A stretch of DNA of 44,011 nt. It comes from a virus. A model generated the notes under the pieces. It was not told where the DNA came from and made no database searches. It was given only the letters and a program-made list of their open reading frames with translations. Location: positions 1 through 44,011 of IMG/VR virus record IMGVR_UViG_3300006921_000028; one strand, 5' to 3'. Made by a program: the position numbers and the translations under genes. Of the stretch, positions 5,972 to 29,860 are shown one piece after another. Each line of letters opens with the position of its first letter. The first letter of the stretch is position 1.

Positions 5972-6190
5972 TTATATGGGCAGTTGGGCTCTTTTGGGTA
6001 GAAAGTTTAACTCTCTAGCATTTGCTTCAATTTTTTCCTTCAGTCCTTTGGAAATAAGAGAGCCAACTGAATCAGGTTCAATACCTTCTTTATCACAATA
6101 ATATAAAACTGCTTCCATGTGATTAAGATTTTTTTCTTTAGCAATATTTTCTATTGCAATCGTGAATGTTTTTGATGTAGTAAATGCCAA
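5972..6190 (-). CDS. 33: gp33-like late-transcription co-activator
   Basis: 72 residues. The middle (MEAVLYYCDKEGIEP then LISKGLKEKI) and the end (ELNFLPKR) match the pattern remembered for marine T4-like gp33, which links sliding clamp and host RNA polymerase at late promoters. Position just after gp59 supports this, as in T4. The start must be TTG at 6190 (AGGA eight bases before); the first ATG would remove the N-terminal third. No gp55 is visible in the window. Confidence 0.6.
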   Translation of the reverse strand: MAFTTSKTFTIAIENIAKEKNLNHMEAVLYYCDKEGIEPDSVGSLISKGLKEKIEANARELNFLPKRAQLPI

Positions 6191-6212: not shown

Positions 6213-6250
6213 AAAAAAGTGGAGTTTTTATTTAAAGACGAAAACCCCAC
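6213..6250 (-). terminator. Intrinsic terminator downstream of tmRNA
   Basis: A 10-bp stem (6241-6250 with 6219-6228, one G-U pair) is followed by six T residues on the minus strand. It closes the tmRNA transcription unit just upstream of the gp33-like gene. Confidence 0.85.
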
Positions 6251-6269
6251 AAGAAAAATTAGTCTTGCA

Positions 6270-6495
6270 ATTTCAGTTTTGTTTAAAGTCAAAAACTGGG
6301 GGCACCCCTCAAAATGACTATTAAGTGGTGAGTGTTCTGTTGCTAGGTCACTCACCGAAACCCCGAGCAATTATGCGGCTAGCGCATAATCCTCATGTGC
6401 AAAGTTATAGTTTGCAGTTACAGTTTTGACTAATAACGGAGTCACCCGACAATTCTCCACTCATCTACCCCTGCCTGTCGATCCTATTCAGCCCC
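6270..6495 (-). ncRNA. ssrA: Permuted tmRNA, coding piece (5' acceptor strand and tag)
   Basis: tmRNA rescues stalled ribosomes and adds a degradation tag. The piece begins GGGGCTGAATAGGATCGACAG (6495 downward), matching the 5' end of bacterial tmRNA. It then carries a resume region (TAACT before GCA), a tag frame at 6415-6371 reading ANYNFAHEDYALAA then TAA, and helices such as 6327-6334/6349-6356 and 6274-6280/6292-6298. No CCA-bearing 3' end follows. That end lies upstream at 6654, and the acceptor strands pair (GGGGCTG with CAGCTCC, one G-U), so the gene is permuted. The exact 3' end is unknown. Confidence 0.85.
6371..6415 (-). other. tmRNA tag-peptide reading frame
   Basis: Fifteen codons starting GCA and ending TAA encode ANYNFAHEDYALAA. 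The ALAA end is the classical ClpXP-type degron. The upstream TAACT occupies the place of the E. coli TAGTC determinant. The frame is also open for four codons upstream, so the resume codon is inferred by analogy. Confidence 0.8.
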
Positions 6496-6507
6496 ATCAC
6501 AACTACA

Positions 6508-6633
6508 CTAGATATTCTTTTTAATCCACTTATAAGCTGCATAAGCAATAAGTAAAACAACTATTGTTCCGATACCATCAAACCAAGATGTTTCATTTAT
6601 TGCATCTATAAGGTCTGCTGTAATCCAATCCAT
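6508..6633 (-). CDS. 41-residue single-span membrane protein between the tmRNA halves
   Basis: Starts MDWITADLID and has one hydrophobic segment (about 21-36, IGTIVVLLIAYAAY) followed by a Lys-rich end (KWIKKNI). ATG 6633 has GGAG eight bases before it. It occupies the whole spacer between the acceptor piece (ends 6654) and the coding piece (starts 6495) of the permuted tmRNA, so it would be translated from a region normally discarded on processing. Size and topology fit a phage small membrane protein or pinholin-like peptide, but function is unknown. Confidence 0.6.
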   Translation of the reverse strand: MDWITADLIDAINETSWFDGIGTIVVLLIAYAAYKWIKKNI

Positions 6634-6653
6634 GTTATTCTCCAATGTGTTTG

Positions 6654-6722
6654 TGGTGGAGCTGGAGGGATTCGCACCCTCGTCCAGCTCAGTTCTCAAC
6701 TTGCATCAACAAATTGTATTCT
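6654..6722 (-). ncRNA. ssrA: Permuted tmRNA, acceptor piece (T arm and CCA end)
   Basis: Reads GGACGAGGGTGCGAATCCC followed by TCCAGCTCCACCA, matching the 3' end of one-piece tmRNA (T arm GAGGG-TGCGAAT-CCCTC, acceptor strand CAGCTCC, discriminator A, CCA). The acceptor strand pairs with the 5' end of the coding piece at 6495-6489. It is transcribed first, the hallmark of permuted tmRNA known in alpha- and betaproteobacteria. Its 5' boundary is set only by the predicted transcription start near 6722. Confidence 0.82.
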
Positions 6723-6729
6723 ATTTATA
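6722..6729 (-). promoter_or_regulatory. T4-type late promoter motif at tmRNA
   Basis: TATAAATA lies immediately downstream of, and touching, the sigma70 -10 box for the tmRNA. If used, the tmRNA would be made both early and late. The overlap with an AT-rich leader means it could be fortuitous. Confidence 0.45.
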
Positions 6730-6757
6730 TAGTACCATAACAGTACCAGAATGTCAA
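6729..6757 (-). promoter_or_regulatory. Sigma70 promoter for the tmRNA unit
   Basis: TTGACA (6752-6757), 17-nt spacer, TACTAT (6729-6734), start predicted near 6722. It sits between the stop of the next upstream gene and the tmRNA acceptor piece and, with the terminator at 6213-6250, defines a ~500-nt unit. Confidence 0.75.
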
Positions 6758-7787: not shown

Positions 7788-8228
7788 TTATATTGCCCTC
7801 ATTCTCTCCACTAGTCTATCTGCTCGGTTGGTTACTTGGCGATACCAAGCACTGTCAACCATCTCGTCAGCAGCTGCATTCCAATCTCTTGCATCCACTC
7901 CACGTTTCATTCCTTTGAATTTACTCAAACGAGTGCGCCCCATATTAAACATCATGTTTGCAATTATCTGTTGAGCTTCTTCTGGCAAATCATAAAAATC
8001 TAGATACAAAGTAATGCAATCTATTAGTACTGTTTCGCAATCTGCCTCAAAGGCTTCTGCAACTCTGGATTCCAAGACGGCTGAGCCAACTGGACGATTG
8101 TATTCGGGATCGCTTTCTAATATTAAATGACCAATGCCAAAAGTAGGATAACCAAGATGGTCATTATATATTTCATACTTTACACCTTCATCAATTTCTA
8201 GTTGCTTCCTAAGTTCATCTAAATTCAT
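7788..8228 (-). CDS. e: T4-type lysozyme (endolysin)
   Basis: Cleaves the peptidoglycan glycan chain at lysis. 146 residues, near the 164 of T4. The catalytic triad is recognisable with T4 spacing: Glu14 (IDEG), Asp23 (YND) and Thr29 (YPTFGIGHL). No signal peptide, so it needs a holin. ATG 8228 has GGAG seven bases before and overlaps the stop of a newly noted small membrane gene (ATGA), suggesting a holin-lysin pair. Confidence 0.9.
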   Translation of the reverse strand: MNLDELRKQLEIDEGVKYEIYNDHLGYPTFGIGHLILESDPEYNRPVGSAVLESRVAEAFEADCETVLIDCITLYLDFYDLPEEAQQIIANMMFNMGRTRLSKFKGMKRGVDARDWNAAADEMVDSAWYRQVTNRADRLVERMRAI

Positions 8229-15363: not shown

Positions 15364-17220
15364 TTAACGAGGTTTGAAAATAGTTATCAATTCATCCTTA
15401 CCTTTGACCTTAATTTTGTCCAATTCGACACCTTTTAGGTCATCTGGTAGCTGTTCTTGGGTATATGATGAGTAAATCGTATTAACAATACTGCCACCGC
15501 GAGTCTTATAGTTACGAGTAGATGCCTCTAATCTTGCAGCCAGATTGACTGCATCACCAATAACTGAATAGTCAAATCTGGTGCTACTACCCATATTACC
15601 CACAATACACGTTCCTGTATTGACTCCACTACCGATATTAATCTCTGGTAGTCCTTTCTCCTTCCATGCAGCCTTTAGATTCTCAGTCTCCACCGCACAC
15701 TCCATAGAGGTACGAACTGCCATTTCTGCATGGTTCTCACAATCCAGTGGTGCGTTCCAGAATGCCATGATACAATCACCCATATACTTGTCTACCGTTC
15801 CACCATTATTCAAGACTATCTTGGTCATACGATCTAGGTAATCATTGATACAGTCAACCAACCCCTCTGGGTCATCATTGTTTTTGTAGTATTCTGATAT
15901 AGGTGTAAATCCAACAATGTCCATAAAAAGAAAACTCATCTCTCTACGTTCACCACCAAGTTTTAGTGCCTCTGGATTTTTCTGTAAAATTGCAACCTGT
16001 CTTGGGTCAAGGTAGTGTTCAAACTGTTTCTTGATCTGTTGACGCAATCTGAATTCTTCCATGAACCGTAGAAAAGCTGCAACCGACCAAACCACAAACA
16101 TAGTCAGAACAGGGTATGACCAATCTATTAGATAACTGTATTCAGTAAATAAATATGAACTACCGTAATAAGACCCTGCAAGAAATAATGGTAATAGTAT
16201 TGCACCGAAATACCAACTTAGTGTTAACACCACGGCAGTTAGTACCAATGATGTTACTAGGGTAACTGACAACTCTGCTAAGTCAGACCAGAATGGCCTT
16301 GTGATGTTTCTTCCTGTCATCATAGTTGTTATAGATGCAGCTATCAAATCATGACTTTGAATAACACCAACTGGTGTTGCAACTGGATTATCAATACCAG
16401 ACGCAGTTGGTGAAAGTATAACAATCTTTCCGTTGAAATTTAATTCTTCAAACAACTCTTTTTCTACTAATCTGTTTATTGGATAAGTTTTCGTTTTCCA
16501 TTTGAAATCAATCCAGACTGCACCATTCGCATCAGTCAGTACCTTTTTGTATTTTGGTATGCGTAGTGCTTCGATACCACCCTCACCAGTTTTCATCTGG
16601 TAACTGAGATCACCAGCAGCTACTCTTAATATCTCCATAGATAATGATGGGTATAGTTGTCCGTCTATCTGAACCACCAAAGGCATTCTACGAACTACAC
16701 CATCACCCTCTGGTGCAACTAACATCATACCAACACCTATTGCTGATTTTGCAAAAGGTTCTATTGGCCCAACCGCACCTGTATAGTTATACACCCAAGG
16801 TTGCCATGGCGTACCTATTGTTGCTACTCCTCTGGAAATAGGATTGCCTTTAGTTTCGTTTGCTGGTATTTGACCTATGATGGTGGGAGTCTTCTTCAAC
16901 ATCTCATCAAATTGTTGATCACCACCCATCCTATCTTCATCTGCAAACAGTATAGGAACTACAACAATCGCAGCTCCCATACGATAAAGTGCTTCAATAT
17001 CTTTTGCTAATTCGTTTCTAGGCCATGGCCATTGACCACGTTCTCTTATAGATTCATTATCTATTTCTACTGTTACAATTTTATCTGAGATTTCTTCTTG
17101 TTGTGTTCTTTGATGTTGGTCTAGTGCTTTCATTCGCACCATGTCCAGAAACCAAGGGTCTACAAAACGTATACCACAAAATATAATAATAACCAAGATA
17201 GAGATAATCCATTTTTTCAT
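15364..17220 (-). CDS. CHASE2-domain class III adenylate cyclase
   Basis: Predicted membrane sensor making cAMP from ATP. Domains: N-terminal membrane helix (4-19); periplasmic CHASE2 domain (about 30-300, with VTVEIDNESIRERGQWPWPR and PLVVQIDGQLYPSLSME); about three membrane helices (315-385); and a cytoplasmic class III cyclase (about 425-615). The catalytic set is complete: metal Asp434 (FMDIVGF) and Asp482 (YMGD), base-selecting Lys478 (VDKYM) and Asp556 (VIGD), which favour adenine over guanine, and transition-state Asn559 and Arg563 (NLAARLE). It is the last gene of the curli-like operon, two bases after a curlin-like gene, with AAGGA before ATG. Extraordinary cargo for a phage. Confidence 0.92.
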   Translation of the reverse strand: MKKWIISILVIIIFCGIRFVDPWFLDMVRMKALDQHQRTQQEEISDKIVTVEIDNESIRERGQWPWPRNELAKDIEALYRMGAAIVVVPILFADEDRMGGDQQFDEMLKKTPTIIGQIPANETKGNPISRGVATIGTPWQPWVYNYTGAVGPIEPFAKSAIGVGMMLVAPEGDGVVRRMPLVVQIDGQLYPSLSMEILRVAAGDLSYQMKTGEGGIEALRIPKYKKVLTDANGAVWIDFKWKTKTYPINRLVEKELFEELNFNGKIVILSPTASGIDNPVATPVGVIQSHDLIAASITTMMTGRNITRPFWSDLAELSVTLVTSLVLTAVVLTLSWYFGAILLPLFLAGSYYGSSYLFTEYSYLIDWSYPVLTMFVVWSVAAFLRFMEEFRLRQQIKKQFEHYLDPRQVAILQKNPEALKLGGERREMSFLFMDIVGFTPISEYYKNNDDPEGLVDCINDYLDRMTKIVLNNGGTVDKYMGDCIMAFWNAPLDCENHAEMAVRTSMECAVETENLKAAWKEKGLPEINIGSGVNTGTCIVGNMGSSTRFDYSVIGDAVNLAARLEASTRNYKTRGGSIVNTIYSSYTQEQLPDDLKGVELDKIKVKGKDELITIFKPR

Positions 17221-17221
17221 A

Positions 17222-18019
17222 CTAATTTCCTTGTGTTAATGATATTCCACAACCACCAGAAGTTTGGCAGGTCTGTGTAATAGAATAAGACTGTGCTGTA
17301 TTCCCTTGTTGTGTTAGCGATAAATCAGTATGATACGAACCATATAAATTTACTGTTGCGGTATGAGCTCCATCACCCTTTTGCATGACCTCTTGTTCTC
17401 CACCGTCTGTTCTTATGTCCATTCTCAAGTCCTTATCTCCATTTCCTTTCTGTGTAACAAACGTATCGTTATTATCACCATTATAATAATATATTTGTGC
17501 ATAGTGGTCAGCATTGCCTGTACCTGTTTCTTGTCCTACCTTCACACTATTACCATTTGCATGTACATCAAGGTTAACTATGTGACCACCATACTCAGAG
17601 TTTGGTGTTGTGCCAGAACAAGTTGTGTCTGTACTACTAGAAAATGTTGCACCCTGACAAACATGAAGATCGTTATCATTGCCCGGCATATGAAACCCTA
17701 TTCTGTTGGAGTCCGAACCTGTAGTATTATACTGTTCAAATTTAAGAGTATTATTTGTACCATCTATATCACCACCCCAAACTTTACCAGAACCCCAATA
17801 AGACACCCAACTAATTGTATTGTTGTTTCCTACTTGATTAAAATCAAGTGTGTTATCATCATGAGCCATAGACAAGTTAACAGCATTGTTATTGCCGTCT
17901 TGATTAATAGTTATCGTTGTATCGTCACTGGTAGTAATTTGTTCTATGAATACACTGTTGTCAGCGTATGCAATACTACTCAGACTGATAGATAACAATA
18001 TTATTAGTAGTTTCGTCAT
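17222..18019 (-). CDS. Secreted curlin-like repeat protein (second)
   Basis: 265 residues. A signal peptide (about 1-19, ending IAYA) precedes repeats of the curlin pattern: INQDGNNNAV, FNQVGNNNTI, VGQETGTGN, VTQKGNGD, VMQKGDG and LTQQGNTA, that is Gln-x-Gly-x-x-Asn spaced 20-30 residues. Curlin repeats stack as beta-turn-beta amyloid. Two Cys pairs (VCQGA/TTCSG and QTCQTSGGCG) are unlike CsgA. Likely exported through CsgG to the surface. Overlaps FecR by 44 bases and precedes the cyclase. Function as fibre subunit or nucleator is inferred. Confidence 0.75.
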   Translation of the reverse strand: MTKLLIILLSISLSSIAYADNSVFIEQITTSDDTTITINQDGNNNAVNLSMAHDDNTLDFNQVGNNNTISWVSYWGSGKVWGGDIDGTNNTLKFEQYNTTGSDSNRIGFHMPGNDNDLHVCQGATFSSSTDTTCSGTTPNSEYGGHIVNLDVHANGNSVKVGQETGTGNADHYAQIYYYNGDNNDTFVTQKGNGDKDLRMDIRTDGGEQEVMQKGDGAHTATVNLYGSYHTDLSLTQQGNTAQSYSITQTCQTSGGCGISLTQGN

Positions 18020-19049
18020 CTGTCGTTATCTCCGGCACAGGTATTCCACCTTGTGTCAAATTAATTACATAACCCCAATCTGCATTTAGTCTTAAATGCA
18101 CCTCACTACTTCCAACCTGCCTAATTATTTCTAAGCGCGAACCATCACGAAGCGTATTGACTTGAGTTGCTTTGTTGAACCCACTTGTTCTACCATCTAT
18201 CATTTCTGACTGTGCGGTCAATGCAATTAATTGATCTAAAACATTCATCAACAAATCTACATCTAAAGGATTAATATCCAATTCAGTAAACTGCAATTCA
18301 TCTTCATCAAGTTCATTTTCATCTAATACTTTAAACTCTAAGAAATCTACATCTAATAAGTTATTTGAACTATTAATGTTTTTAACTATTTCTATAAGTT
18401 TTTCTTTTGGTGGTTTGATTATTAATAGATTATTAATCTGGTCTAAAGATAAATCAAGTACAACTGGTTTAGTTGGCATACTTTCGCCATTTGTAACCAG
18501 TGTAGATTGAAATGCTTGGTTGAGCATAACTTGGCCAGCTTCACTTTCTACTGAAATTTTACCCACCGTTCCATCTGCATTGGGAAGTAGAATAATCAAA
18601 GATTTTCCTACCTCATCAACTGTCATACTAAACGCAGTTCCAAGTACACCTATTCGTGCGGTTGGCGTGCGTATATCAACATTTTGAGCATTCAGTTTTG
18701 CAATGTTACCACTTGCATATCTAACTGTTCCCAATGCGACATTCATTACAAGTTTAGACCCACCCTTACTATTTGGGTCGTACACAAAGTCATCTATCAC
18801 CAATGAACTGTGCGGGCTTATTGCCACATTTGTATTATCTACAAATTTTATGCCAACATTACCATTTCCTGTACGGACATTATCTTTAAATTCAATACCA
18901 AAGTCTTTTTTCAGAGCAAGTTTGTTCTTTGCTCTCTCAACTGAGGCATTTCCTTTTTGTTTTACTACATTACCAATAGTGTCTGACAGAGCAATATTGC
19001 TCATCAGCATCAAAAATGTAAAACTAATCGTCCATAGTAACCGTAACAT
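17976..19049 (-). CDS. Periplasmic FecR-domain protein
   Basis: 357 residues. Signal peptide (about 1-22), then a FecR domain (about 28-160): FKDNVRTGNGNVGIKFVDNT, ISPHSSLVIDDFVYDP, GTVRYASG and TPTARIGVLGTAFS, a signature seen in stand-alone FecR proteins next to CHASE2 cyclases in bacteria. A Leu/Asp/Glu-rich stretch (about 220-275) and a C-terminal domain follow. Such proteins are thought to sense or scaffold at the periplasmic face; the target here may be CHASE2, CsgG or the curlins. Overlaps both neighbours, so translation is coupled. Confidence 0.82.
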   Translation of the reverse strand: MLRLLWTISFTFLMLMSNIALSDTIGNVVKQKGNASVERAKNKLALKKDFGIEFKDNVRTGNGNVGIKFVDNTNVAISPHSSLVIDDFVYDPNSKGGSKLVMNVALGTVRYASGNIAKLNAQNVDIRTPTARIGVLGTAFSMTVDEVGKSLIILLPNADGTVGKISVESEAGQVMLNQAFQSTLVTNGESMPTKPVVLDLSLDQINNLLIIKPPKEKLIEIVKNINSSNNLLDVDFLEFKVLDENELDEDELQFTELDINPLDVDLLMNVLDQLIALTAQSEMIDGRTSGFNKATQVNTLRDGSRLEIIRQVGSSEVHLRLNADWGYVINLTQGGIPVPEITTDDETTNNIVIYQSE

Positions 19050-19728
19050 TATGACCAGACCCCACTGTTGTCATAGAGGTTGTGCCGTCATACGCACCAC
19101 CTTGAGTAATCGCAAATGTGCTAGATGCTCCTGTATGATGTAGAGTTGTATCTTGGTCAGCTGCACCAGTATGTGTTGATGTAATAGTATTGCTAGAACC
19201 GATTGCAGTAATGTTTGTTATCTTTTTATCACTACCAGTTAGTGATGCAGTACTGTTTTCATTAATGGTTATAGTATTGCTATCACCAGTTGCAGTCAAA
19301 TCAATATCTGCATCATCAGATGCAGCTGAGTTACCTACGTTAACAGTAGTTGTATTTGAACTACCTGTGATCGTTTCAATAATACTATTGTCAGCTGACG
19401 CAGAGTTAGCACCAACCGATACAGTAGATGTATTACTGTTACCTTCTTGTTTAAGTGTGAATGTTTGTGTCGCACCCACAACAGAAGCTGCAATGGTATT
19501 TGTATTACCAATTTGGTCAATATCCAAAGTCTGGTTGTCGCCTGTTAAAGTAACTGCCGTGGTCGAATCACCAAATTTATTGGTCTGTCCGTCTTGATTG
19601 ACATTTGCAGTAAGACTTGCGCCTGACTGTGTAACATATACATCACTTGCATGACTTTCTCCCACTCCCCACATAACAAAATAAACGATAGCAATTAATA
19701 CAAATATGCTCGATATAATCGTTTTCAT
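19024..19728 (-). CDS. Secreted curlin-like repeat protein (first)
   Basis: 234 residues. An N-terminal hydrophobic signal (about 1-27, ending SHA) precedes many short Asn/Thr/Ser/Gly-rich repeats: VNQDGQTNKF, IDQIGNTNTI, KQEGNSNTS, then ITGSSNTTTV, ATGDSNTITI and AIGSSNTITS. The first three keep the curlin Gln-x-Gly-x-x-Asn core; later ones lose the Gln. It is low in aromatic and positively charged residues. A likely CsgG substrate and surface beta-solenoid. GGAG lies eight bases before ATG 19728. Confidence 0.72.
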   Translation of the reverse strand: MKTIISSIFVLIAIVYFVMWGVGESHASDVYVTQSGASLTANVNQDGQTNKFGDSTTAVTLTGDNQTLDIDQIGNTNTIAASVVGATQTFTLKQEGNSNTSTVSVGANSASADNSIIETITGSSNTTTVNVGNSAASDDADIDLTATGDSNTITINENSTASLTGSDKKITNITAIGSSNTITSTHTGAADQDTTLHHTGASSTFAITQGGAYDGTTSMTTVGSGHNVTVTMDD

Positions 19729-19740
19729 TTAATTGTCTCC

Positions 19741-20523
19741 TTATTTAAATTTCCATAGTTCTTTTTCTATCCCTTCTTCAATTATCTGACTTACACAATG
19801 TTCGATTGCTTTACGAACTGCGTAAGATGTAGACTCATTCTCAGTAACGCCAGCTTCAACTTCTAACAATTTAGTACCCATGTCTAAAAATGTGAAAAGA
19901 CTTACGCCAACTTTAGCACTTAATATAGTTTTTTGGGAGCTTACTGCAAGTAAAACTTCACCTGTTTGAACAGATATTAATCTTAGGCCAACCGACACCA
20001 TATCTCTGCGGTATTCAACTTGTGGGCCCACTCCCAAATATCTTGCACCAGCACCTCCAGTTTCTATATTAGAATCATAACCAACAATTCCACCAGCTAC
20101 AAAAACACCAGCAAAAGTTAAAGGTCTAACTTTTTTTGCGTTTTCGCCATCATAAGTGGTTCTTGTATTTCTTATAATCTGCCGTTCTTTTAACAGTTGG
20201 TCTAATTGCATTCTTTCAACAACTGTAAACCACTCTCCCTTTCCAGCAGATTTAAGTGCTTGTACTAACCACGTTGCTGCTCCTTGTGTTACAGCCATAC
20301 TGAACGAAGCACCTGTGTCAATAGGTTTCCTTTGCCCCGTTTGATCGACAAATTTATAAACAGCTATGTCAACCTTCCTCTCAGGAGGTGGAAAATTTTC
20401 TAATTTGTTCACCATCGGGACTGATGTAGATGTTGGTGCTTCTAAGAATTCTGTCGTAGCACAACCACCTAGACTAAAAAGTAAAGTCGCCAATAGGAAC
20501 TGTAATAACGGTTTCGCTTGCAT
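19741..20523 (-). CDS. csgG: CsgG-like curli secretion pore lipoprotein
   Basis: Forms the nonameric outer-membrane channel of curli (type VIII) secretion. 260 residues, as for E. coli. Lipobox LGGC puts the lipidated Cys at 21. Conserved blocks follow E. coli CsgG: VYKFVDQTGQRKP, then WFTVVERMQLDQLLKERQIIR, GGIVGYDSN, GGAGARYLGVG, LRLISVQTGEVL and GVTENE. In the constriction loop Phe56 (E. coli mature numbering) is kept (SFS), but Tyr51 and Asn55 are not, and the loop is one residue longer. The start lies inside csgF, as in coupled secretion genes. Confidence 0.94.
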   Translation of the reverse strand: MQAKPLLQFLLATLLFSLGGCATTEFLEAPTSTSVPMVNKLENFPPPERKVDIAVYKFVDQTGQRKPIDTGASFSMAVTQGAATWLVQALKSAGKGEWFTVVERMQLDQLLKERQIIRNTRTTYDGENAKKVRPLTFAGVFVAGGIVGYDSNIETGGAGARYLGVGPQVEYRRDMVSVGLRLISVQTGEVLLAVSSQKTILSAKVGVSLFTFLDMGTKLLEVEAGVTENESTSYAVRKAIEHCVSQIIEEGIEKELWKFK

Positions 20524-20953
20524 TTGTATCCACTATTGTTAGAGTTACGTTTTCTGTATCTTTGACGTAACTGATTGTTGTACCTTCAAATGTGACTGTA
20601 CCTGCTTCTCCAGAATTTTCTCCGAACATGCTGTCCACGAGTTGTTTTGACAACTGTGCATAAATTCTTGATTCAACATTTTTCATAAACTTTGAAAGAT
20701 TCGTATTAGCTGCATCTCTTAACGCTTCTCTTTCTGCAGCTTCTTTCTTTTCTCTTATCGCTTTCTTTCTAGAGTGTTCTTGATTTTCAATTGTTAGTGC
20801 GTGTGAACTGTAACCATTTCCACTAAAAGCTGGTGATTTCCACTGGTGAACCAAGTCGCTTGCTTTAGCATATTCTGCAACATATATACACAAAAACAAC
20901 GATAATAAAATAGTTATTTTAATTTTAAAATTAAGTGTTCTTTTTATTTTCAT
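20474..20953 (-). CDS. csgF: CsgF-like curli assembly factor
   Basis: In E. coli, CsgF enters the CsgG pore and couples it to fibre nucleation. 159 residues: signal peptide to about 32 (EYAKA-SDL), then WKSPAFSGNGYSS, equivalent to the CsgG-plugging start of E. coli CsgF (FRNPNFGGNP). A helix like FTQAIQSQIL follows (FMKNVESRIYAQL), and a C-terminal beta part (TISYVKDTENVTLTIVD). The linker (45-80) is more charged and longer than in E. coli. Overlaps csgG by 50 bases. Confidence 0.88.
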   Translation of the reverse strand: MKIKRTLNFKIKITILLSLFLCIYVAEYAKASDLVHQWKSPAFSGNGYSSHALTIENQEHSRKKAIREKKEAAEREALRDAANTNLSKFMKNVESRIYAQLSKQLVDSMFGENSGEAGTVTFEGTTISYVKDTENVTLTIVDTNASETVITVPIGDFTF

Positions 20954-28612: not shown

Positions 28613-29101
28613 TTAGGTATTATAGAGTTCTTCTTGTGTTGGTATGATTGACCAACGACCAAAGACAACAACAGCATTATAAGCTGCTTTTATTTTCCAT
28701 TTTGGAACAGCTGGAGTTGCATCTTCCATTGCCATTAGAAATACTTTATCTGCAGCTTTCTTTGCAGCTTTGTAGTTATTAACTACTGTTTCTAAATCTG
28801 GATTATCTGGGTATTCATTTATTGCACGATATTCTCGAATACGTCTGTATAGTAAATCGTGAATAATTGCAGCACGAGCTATATCCCAAGGTGAAATCAA
28901 CCACCACATAGAACGAGGCACACTTGCAAGGTCTGTCTCAAAATCTTTTTTACATGTAATTTTACTTGCTGGGCATTTTACTCCAACCGACTGAAGTGCT
29001 GATTCTTCCATATCAGAATTTTGATATGTAAGCGCACGTTCTAAAATCCATTTGTTAGGTGGGTGAAACTCTGCTGAAAGTTTATTGTTGAAACTGCCCA
29101 T
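28613..29101 (-). CDS. DUF1353-like phage protein
   Basis: 162 residues. The run FETDLASVPRSMWWLISPW followed by ARAAIIHDLLY with the conserved Asp, Pro, His and Asp is the DUF1353 signature, common in tailed phages near lysis or tail genes. Biochemical function unknown. ATG 29101 overlaps the Rz1-like stop as TAATG. Confidence 0.75.
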   Translation of the reverse strand: MGSFNNKLSAEFHPPNKWILERALTYQNSDMEESALQSVGVKCPASKITCKKDFETDLASVPRSMWWLISPWDIARAAIIHDLLYRRIREYRAINEYPDNPDLETVVNNYKAAKKAADKVFLMAMEDATPAVPKWKIKAAYNAVVVFGRWSIIPTQEELYNT

Positions 29102-29532
29102 TATTCTTTAATCTCCTCTAGTTCTTTTTTTGGTTTTTTACCAGTTTGTTGGAAGGTTATTGCATCTTCATAATAAATTATGATTTCTTTTTGTTGCTCT
29201 ATGTATCTTTTTATTTCAGCCATGTTTAATGCAAGGTTTTCATAGTCTCTTACACTAATACTATAAAATAAAAAAGAACCATTCTTTTTGGTAAATTTAG
29301 TCTTAAATTCTTCAAAATTTTGCTCTGTAACAATCCAAAAATGCATATTGTTCATATCAACAGGACGAGGTTTATTCTGTAATGGAATAATCCTTTTTGC
29401 TTCTACTGTTTGAACAGATATTTCTTTAAGACTTGGCCAGAGTGAACACCCACTACTTAACAGTAGGATCGGCAATAACAGGAACAGCGCCAGTGATTGT
29501 TTCAAATTCGGTAAGCAATTTCTTTGTCGCAT
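29101..29532 (-). CDS. Outer-membrane lipoprotein, Rz1-like (o-spanin candidate)
   Basis: 143 residues. Signal with lipobox LLSSGC (Cys29) after a hydrophobic core, then a soluble domain with NNMHFWIVTEQNFEEFK and a C-terminal YIEQQKEIIIYYEDAI helix. It starts inside the upstream Rz-like gene in another frame, the hallmark of overlapping spanin pairs that join inner and outer membrane at lysis. Larger than lambda Rz1, so the spanin call is inferred from layout. Confidence 0.6.
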   Translation of the reverse strand: MRQRNCLPNLKQSLALFLLLPILLLSSGCSLWPSLKEISVQTVEAKRIIPLQNKPRPVDMNNMHFWIVTEQNFEEFKTKFTKKNGSFLFYSISVRDYENLALNMAEIKRYIEQQKEIIIYYEDAITFQQTGKKPKKELEEIKE

Positions 29533-29860
29533 GGTTTATTTTTCCTTCAACTAAAAGAGGTTTTTGTTGACTCAAACGAGAAAGATCATGTTTTCTCAAT
29601 TTACCAATAAGTTGATTTTTGTAGTTATTAGCAGCTTCAAGTCTTGTATTTAGTTCTTTTGCAAGTTCAGCATTTTGTTCAGCATCTTGCACAAGAGTGT
29701 CTATGGTGTTTTTTTGTGTCTGTGTTGCAATTTCTAATTGTGCAGCATTTTCCGTAAGTATTCGAATACGGTTTTGGGTGTCATTATAGTAAAAATAAGC
29801 ACCATAAACTGCACCACCAACCAATCCAATAACTGCGACTAAAATGTAAACTTTTATCAT
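29453..29860 (-). CDS. Rz-like inner-membrane coiled-coil protein (i-spanin candidate)
   Basis: 135 residues: an N-terminal membrane helix (about 4-25, YILVAVIGLVGGAVYGAYFYY) and a periplasmic coiled coil (about 30-85), with a C-terminal part PVIADPTVK. Single-span type II topology, length and overlap with a lipoprotein gene are those of Rz i-spanins. CGGAG lies before ATG 29860, and a late promoter TATAAATA is just upstream, as expected for lysis genes. Confidence 0.65.
   Translation of the reverse strand: MIKVYILVAVIGLVGGAVYGAYFYYNDTQNRIRILTENAAQLEIATQTQKNTIDTLVQDAEQNAELAKELNTRLEAANNYKNQLIGKLRKHDLSRLSQQKPLLVEGKINHATKKLLTEFETITGAVPVIADPTVK

Follow-up and report, generated by a model that had tools for sequence, protein, structure and literature searches.

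In the 44,011-nucleotide (nt) DNA of virus record IMGVR_UViG_3300006921_000028 (hereafter the window), which comes from a marine, T4-like phage, we found a permuted transfer-messenger RNA (tmRNA) gene whose spacer, the segment between its acceptor and coding pieces, holds a conserved gene for a small protein. We consider it probable that the spacer of this phage tmRNA has turned into a slot for a small late gene, so that the transcript would be a bifunctional precursor late in infection and then a tmRNA. The RNA itself is filed as a permuted tmRNA; the protein-coding spacer is what is new. It has been reported that permuted tmRNAs occur in marine phages, and that in Methylophilales phage Melnitz a two-piece tmRNA follows a predicted early promoter and immediately precedes the coactivator gene (PMC9004378). 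Processing of a two-piece tmRNA has been demonstrated by northern blot in Orientia (PMC7335160), and in a tmRNA database paper of 2025 the spacer is an intervening sequence that mature tmRNA lacks (PMC11915505). Our literature search, whose coverage left out most subscription papers, turned up no account of a tmRNA spacer that codes for protein.

The locus occupies 6213-6757 of the window, and all of its coordinates refer to the minus strand (Table 1). A model that had seen only the DNA letters (the sequence-only reading) had placed here, in transcript order, a promoter, an acceptor piece, an open reading frame (ORF) with a ribosome site and the coding piece of a two-piece tmRNA, and this order was upheld. 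Covariance models and ARAGORN agreed on a permuted tmRNA of the alphaproteobacterial type at 6371-6717. In Rfam, RF04321 (tmRNA_permuted) scored 104.2 bits at the locus, well over its cut-off of 47 (expectation value, E, 2e-19), and RF01849 (alpha_tmRNA) scored 87 bits with a cut-off of 50; ARAGORN called a permuted tmRNA (tmRNA*) at 6280-6746 with the tag ANYNFAHEDYALAA, which ends in ALAA-like residues. The only other over-cut-off Rfam match in the window was one tRNA, and no second tmRNA was found elsewhere in it. A self-splicing intron in the T loop, the mark of group I intron tmRNAs, was likewise absent from the Rfam scan of the window. Across the spacer, GGGGCTG of the coding piece pairs with CAGCTCC of the acceptor piece, as had been proposed from the letters, and in the relatives L191 and L281 this stem is changed on both strands to GGGGTTG/CAACTCC, a compensatory replacement of C-G by U-A. 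Because both sides of the acceptor stem change together in these relatives, the two pieces can be taken to pair.

A 41-codon ORF, preceded by a ribosome site, takes up nearly all of the 158-nt spacer. Its homologues and the selection acting on it mark this ORF as a true, conserved gene, whose product is short and has a single hydrophobic segment. An ORF of at least 41 codons led by a Shine-Dalgarno (SD) sequence arose in only about 1 in 1000 first-order shuffles of a spacer of like composition. Queried with the ORF and with the homologue from Pelagibacter phage Mosig EXVC030M, the viral contigs yielded 60 that carry homologues; none was found in GTDB genomes. In 15 viral contigs other than the window (L126-L139 and L162) the ORF sits in the same tmRNA spacer, and the gene order around it is that of the window, with an exonuclease gene upstream and genes for gp33 and a helicase loader downstream (L137 is truncated, and its placement was judged by eye). 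The seven distinct complete spacers with this ORF, which we call family 1, are every one 158 nt long, with a conserved leader, CAAA(C/T)ACATTGGAGAATAA, a conserved closing end and a variable ORF. When the window ORF was compared with the nearest copies in spacers, the ratio of nonsynonymous to synonymous substitution rates (dN/dS, method of Nei and Gojobori) was 0.26-0.30; comparison with free-standing homologues gave 0.05-0.40. The Mosig homologue (Mosig_00134, QOI69096.1) is an annotated gene, and its protein is 73% identical to that of the window ORF. The window protein has a basic C-terminus, and its hydrophobic segment has a mean Kyte-Doolittle hydropathy of 1.82 over 17 residues, a value that is hydrophobic without being decisive. 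The small-protein gene that the sequence-only reading had suspected in the spacer is thus borne out by its homologues, by the Mosig annotation and by its presence in the same spacer of related phages, and its frame, rather than being poorly conserved, is under purifying selection.

The window ORF is not the only small gene found in this position. Family 2 comprises 47 distinct spacers of 159-192 nt (L194, L196, L199, L304, L318, L338 and others) and is unrelated to the window ORF. Its layout is a short acidic frame (ORF1) behind a strong SD AAAGGAGATT, overlapped by a small hydrophobic protein (ORF2) MKNPLVREVSKWMFKAYILWSICADITLLAGIIYLVFF whose stop codon falls a single base short of the coding piece. 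Over 26 distinct 159-nt spacers, the tail of ORF2 showed a ratio of nonsynonymous to synonymous differences per site (pN/pS) of 0.15 in its own frame, which is free of stops; both other frames contain stops and have ratios exceeding 1. ORF1 was rejected as a selected gene (pN/pS 1.07 in the 159-nt form) and is taken only as a possible leader frame. The family 2 module stands free in L402, L403, L411, L417 and L422, and lies immediately upstream of the tmRNA, not within it, in L327/L329 and L415/L418/L420. Neither for family 2 nor for the L208-type spacer ORF were free-standing homologues found in the annotated phage collection; one Sulfitobacter match was dismissed, as it fell within a long unrelated gene. 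As a separate observation, in L382, L391 and L421 (around 1400-1700) a family 2 ORF enters a tmRNA coding piece with no acceptor piece directly upstream; here either the tmRNA gene may be split or the assembly may be chimeric.

Ten distinct spacers of 120, 142, 158 or 166 nt make up family 3 (L426, L429, L449, L457 and others), to which the cultured phage Melnitz (L189, 6204-6656) belongs. In none of them does the ORF stop within the spacer; it is always in frame with the coding piece and stops at +42 inside it. In the 142-nt form pS was 0.186 and pN 0.056. Since these ORFs read into the coding piece, cleavage by RNase P would leave them non-stop, and the cleaved messages would then be substrates of the tmRNA itself. 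Three or four further small families are represented by a few spacers each. Small ORFs, several of them strongly hydrophobic, were also seen to nearly fill the permuted-tmRNA spacers of L114, L226/L480, L222/L467, L470/L488, L060 and L108. Taken together, these comparisons indicate that the spacer of the phage permuted tmRNA is a general slot for unrelated small genes.

Occupancy of the slot varies among close relatives, which we gathered via the helicase loader gp59. In L191, L281, L287 and L288, among others, the spacer measures 35 nt and contains no ORF, and a gp59 protein tree requires no fewer than 18 changes of spacer state. L162, which is occupied, and L281, which is empty, are sisters (support 99/99) with the same tmRNA tag. 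The ORF protein of L162 is only 56% identical to that of the window, with neighbouring genes 73-100% identical, and it is closer to the L165/L178 type, which suggests that its spacer cassette was exchanged. On the evidence of this tree, the tmRNA persists through gains, losses and swaps of the ORF.

Free-standing homologues bear on where the ORF stood before. As a rule this gene is found outside tmRNA spacers, in many cases close to lysis genes; neither this nor the empty spacers and the other small genes in the slot had been noticed in the sequence-only reading. L140 is a 40-kb relative with about 80% identity to the window over 3.5 kb. Its copy of the ORF immediately precedes the i-spanin gene and the o-spanin gene nested in it, and start and stop codons overlap there; gp33 and the exonuclease are present in L140, and a permuted tmRNA was not detected between them. 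The window has a spanin pair without the ORF at the site where L140 has it. Because L140, with no tmRNA found, carries the ORF at its spanins, and the window carries the tmRNA and no ORF at its spanins, the ORF looks relocated from a spanin-adjacent site to the tmRNA spacer. A second copy was found neither in the window nor in the 27.6-kb contig of a family 1 relative, so that, in the parts seen, the ORF was not duplicated into the spacer with a copy left behind in the lysis cassette. Homologues also stand free near endolysin genes in L146, L158 and L165. From these gene neighbours we infer a link to lysis, in which the protein is most likely a helper; a match of its sequence to a known lysis family was found in neither Pfam nor PHROG. 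The window also encodes a second wall hydrolase (Cell Wall Hydrolase, PF07486, 10518-11036, minus strand) besides its lysozyme (PF00959) and spanins.

The position of the late promoter also recurs. The motif TATAAATA is kept in all five aligned family 1 variants though the surrounding upstream region diverges, and it lies 73-77 nt before the CCA end in 77 of the 150 distinct permuted tmRNAs collected, among them 7/7 of family 1 and 41/47 of family 2. The next gene downstream encodes a gp33-like late transcription coactivator, and in Melnitz gp33 has the same position relative to the tmRNA. The presence of the TATAAATA promoter and gp33 in one phage is what a T4-type late gene would be expected to show. 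The promoter named by the sequence-only reading was found as sigma-70-like hexamers (TTGACA-17-TACTAT), of which TTGACA is not conserved in L130; the T4-type late promoter that they overlap had been missed. The terminator it had named fared less well. A candidate hairpin was seen by eye, and a consensus scan, whose limit is exceeded by the 12-nt loop, found no terminator at the locus. Nor is the hairpin conserved: in L162 hardly any sequence separates the tmRNA from gp33.

The two ends of the spacer are predicted to pair with each other, thereby extending the acceptor stem. Over 101 distinct end pairs, with kinship not corrected, the duplex of cognate ends had a mean of -15.5 kcal/mol, compared to -6.4 kcal/mol for permuted partners (the strongest of 200 permutations was -7.3), and the empty and unclassified spacers, which are diverse among themselves, showed an equally large contrast. 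The closing stem runs through the ribosome site. In computed folds of family 2, the unpaired value of the SD was 0.00 in the full precursor compared to 0.08-0.81 before the closing strand is made. The fold of the window precursor had a z of -3.6 compared to shuffles.

We therefore set out how a slot of this kind could work. A single transcript would start at the late promoter beside the acceptor piece, possibly also at the overlapping sigma-70-like promoter, and would carry the acceptor piece, the spacer cistron and the coding piece in this order. Ribosomes would start on the cistron and make the 41-residue membrane protein, most likely the lysis helper, before or until the spacer ends pair. 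Pairing would bring the acceptor and coding pieces together; tRNA-processing enzymes would then cleave the RNA at its CCA and GGGG ends, the two pieces would act as tmRNA and the spacer would be discarded. A more elaborate version makes the precursor self-regulating: the spacer would be translated while nascent, closure of the stem would bury the ribosome site and the stop codon, ending translation and committing the RNA to tmRNA maturation, and in phages of the Melnitz type the cut would in addition yield a non-stop substrate of the same tmRNA. This version we regard as rather unlikely.

Several observations weigh against a bifunctional late precursor with a lysis gene in its spacer. The ORF has no confident match in Pfam or PHROG, the best being phrog_9048 (unknown function, E 0.016), and some of the alignments counted above stem from near-identical contigs. 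Homologues of the Mosig type lie among baseplate genes, and those of the L178 type lie near small basic proteins and the terminase, not near lysis genes. In addition, the change in the window is modest, with an SD unpaired value of 0.14 in the full precursor compared to 0.31 before the closing strand, and in L162 the ribosome site is mostly free (0.72), such that burial is not universal.

A simpler explanation is that a real late gene merely uses the promoter and a tolerant loop, and that its translation and tmRNA maturation are functionally unlinked. We think this quite possible, as the same protein is free-standing in many phages, empty spacers are common among close relatives and unrelated genes fit the same slot. 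However, the spacer keeps its closing stem, which lies over the ribosome site in most variants, and the family 3 ORF always continues in frame into the coding piece; either feature would bring translation into conflict with folding, physically at least. The sequence-only reading had gone further and proposed that processing could turn the peptide off. In a full switch of this sort, translation would in turn delay processing, and the timing of infection would set the ratio of peptide to tmRNA. Such a switch would fit the location of both stop codon and ribosome site within the closing stem and the loss of free ribosome sites between the nascent chain and the full precursor in family 2, but it rests on computed single-strand folding with a modest effect for the window and a weak one for L162. 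Moreover, the excised spacer keeps the same stem, and therefore cleavage would add little to its closing. Overall, we hold a switch of this kind to be somewhat unlikely.

Two further possibilities were rejected. As the ORF is short, it could be an untranslated, decayed or chance reading frame, but the rarity of such frames in shuffles, the purifying selection, the annotated Mosig gene and the homologues that overlap start and stop codons next to spanins make this very improbable. Similarly, the window is a single metagenomic viral record and might be an assembly artefact or chimera; the recurrence of the arrangement in 15 further contigs with several sequence variants, and of a comparable one in four cultured Melnitz isolates, leaves this scarcely credible.

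We compared the window with the closest known systems. With the permuted tmRNAs of alphaproteobacteria and marine phages, the window shares the acceptor-spacer-coding order, the acceptor pairing across the spacer, a tag ending in ALAA and the covariance fit; it differs in that its spacer holds a protein gene, whereas the available text of PMC11915505 mentions as spacer contents only one tRNA-Ala gene and one repetitive element. Melnitz (MZ577097, PMC9004378) likewise has a permuted tmRNA between exonuclease and gp33, TATAAATA upstream and an SD-led spacer ORF, but there the ORF is unrelated, has no spacer stop and extends 42 nt into the coding piece. Some tmRNA genes carry a group I intron encoding a homing endonuclease (PMC11915505), and these too have a protein gene within a removed segment; the window, however, shows no intron or splicing, its spacer protein is no endonuclease, and what is removed divides two RNA pieces that would stay separate. 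Mosig_00134 is alike in its protein and unlike in its setting, being free-standing in the baseplate region, with Mosig's own permuted tmRNA elsewhere and with a 44-nt spacer. Finally, arfA of E. coli is a non-stop mRNA repressed by trans-translation (PMC10107115), and the family 3 ORFs would likewise become non-stop messages after RNase P cleavage, although their non-stop end would come from tmRNA maturation itself and the window ORF has its own stop.

Table 1. Features of the tmRNA locus and of related genes in the window.
Feature	Position	Strand	Evidence
Sigma-70-like promoter: TTGACA -35-like hexamer 6752-6757, 17 nt, TACTAT 6729-6734; 10/12 matches	6729..6757	-	consensus scan
T4-type late promoter, TATAAATA	6722..6729	-	exact match
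Acceptor piece: T arm, acceptor 3' strand CAGCTCC, CCA at 6654-6656	6654..6717	-	RF04321 alignment, ARAGORN
Spacer leader with Shine-Dalgarno GGAG (6640-6643); 5' strand of closing stem	6634..6653	-	sequence, stem prediction, conserved in five variants
Spacer ORF, 41 codons ATG...TAG, protein MDWITADLIDAINETSWFDGIGTIVVLLIAYAAYKWIKKNI	6508..6633	-	homologues, dN/dS
Spacer trailer, 12 nt; 3' strand of closing stem; its end is the predicted RNase P site	6496..6507	-	sequence, stem prediction
Coding piece, GGGGCTG start at 6495; tag frame 6371-6415 (ANYNFAHEDYALAA, then stop)	6371..6495	-	ARAGORN, Rfam
Remainder of coding piece, 3' structural part	6324..6370	-	RF01849 match
Possible intrinsic terminator: 10-bp stem, 12-nt loop, T6 (GTGGGGTTTT-N12-AAAACTCCAC-TTTTTT)	6213..6252	-	by eye
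gp33-like late transcription coactivator, next gene downstream	5972..6190	-	phrog_254, E 5e-19
Phage lysozyme (PF00959), 1 kb upstream of tmRNA locus	7788..8228	-	Pfam
i-spanin 29453-29860 and overlapping o-spanin 29101-29532	29101..29860	-	phrog_739, phrog_812

Elsewhere on the minus strand, the window carries a 618-residue membrane adenylate/guanylate cyclase with a CHASE2 sensor domain (15364-17220; PF05226, E 1e-40; PF00211, E 2e-16). This unusual phage cargo adjoins a gene for a FecR-domain protein and curli genes, the latter in a curli-like cluster at 17222-20953 with repeat proteins, CsgG (PF03783, E 1e-55) and CsgF (PF10614, E 1e-21). Curli-like clusters have been reported for related marine myophages. 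A fibre-like ORF of 2623 residues at 30066-37937, on the same strand, has many internal repeats (self-matches at 31.7-36.7 kb).

These findings indicate that the spacers of two-piece tmRNAs, so far treated as discarded connectors, repeatedly hold selected protein genes, and that one transcript would thus carry both a message and the precursor of a functional RNA. Such genes are missed by annotation pipelines, as seen in Melnitz, whose record MZ577097 has no coding sequence annotated in the spacer. They also suggest a tangible benefit for which phages might retain, beside gp33 and with a late promoter, a tmRNA in permuted form. The competition that they would entail, of translation with RNA processing, can be tested in culture with Melnitz and its host, Methylophilales strain H5P1.
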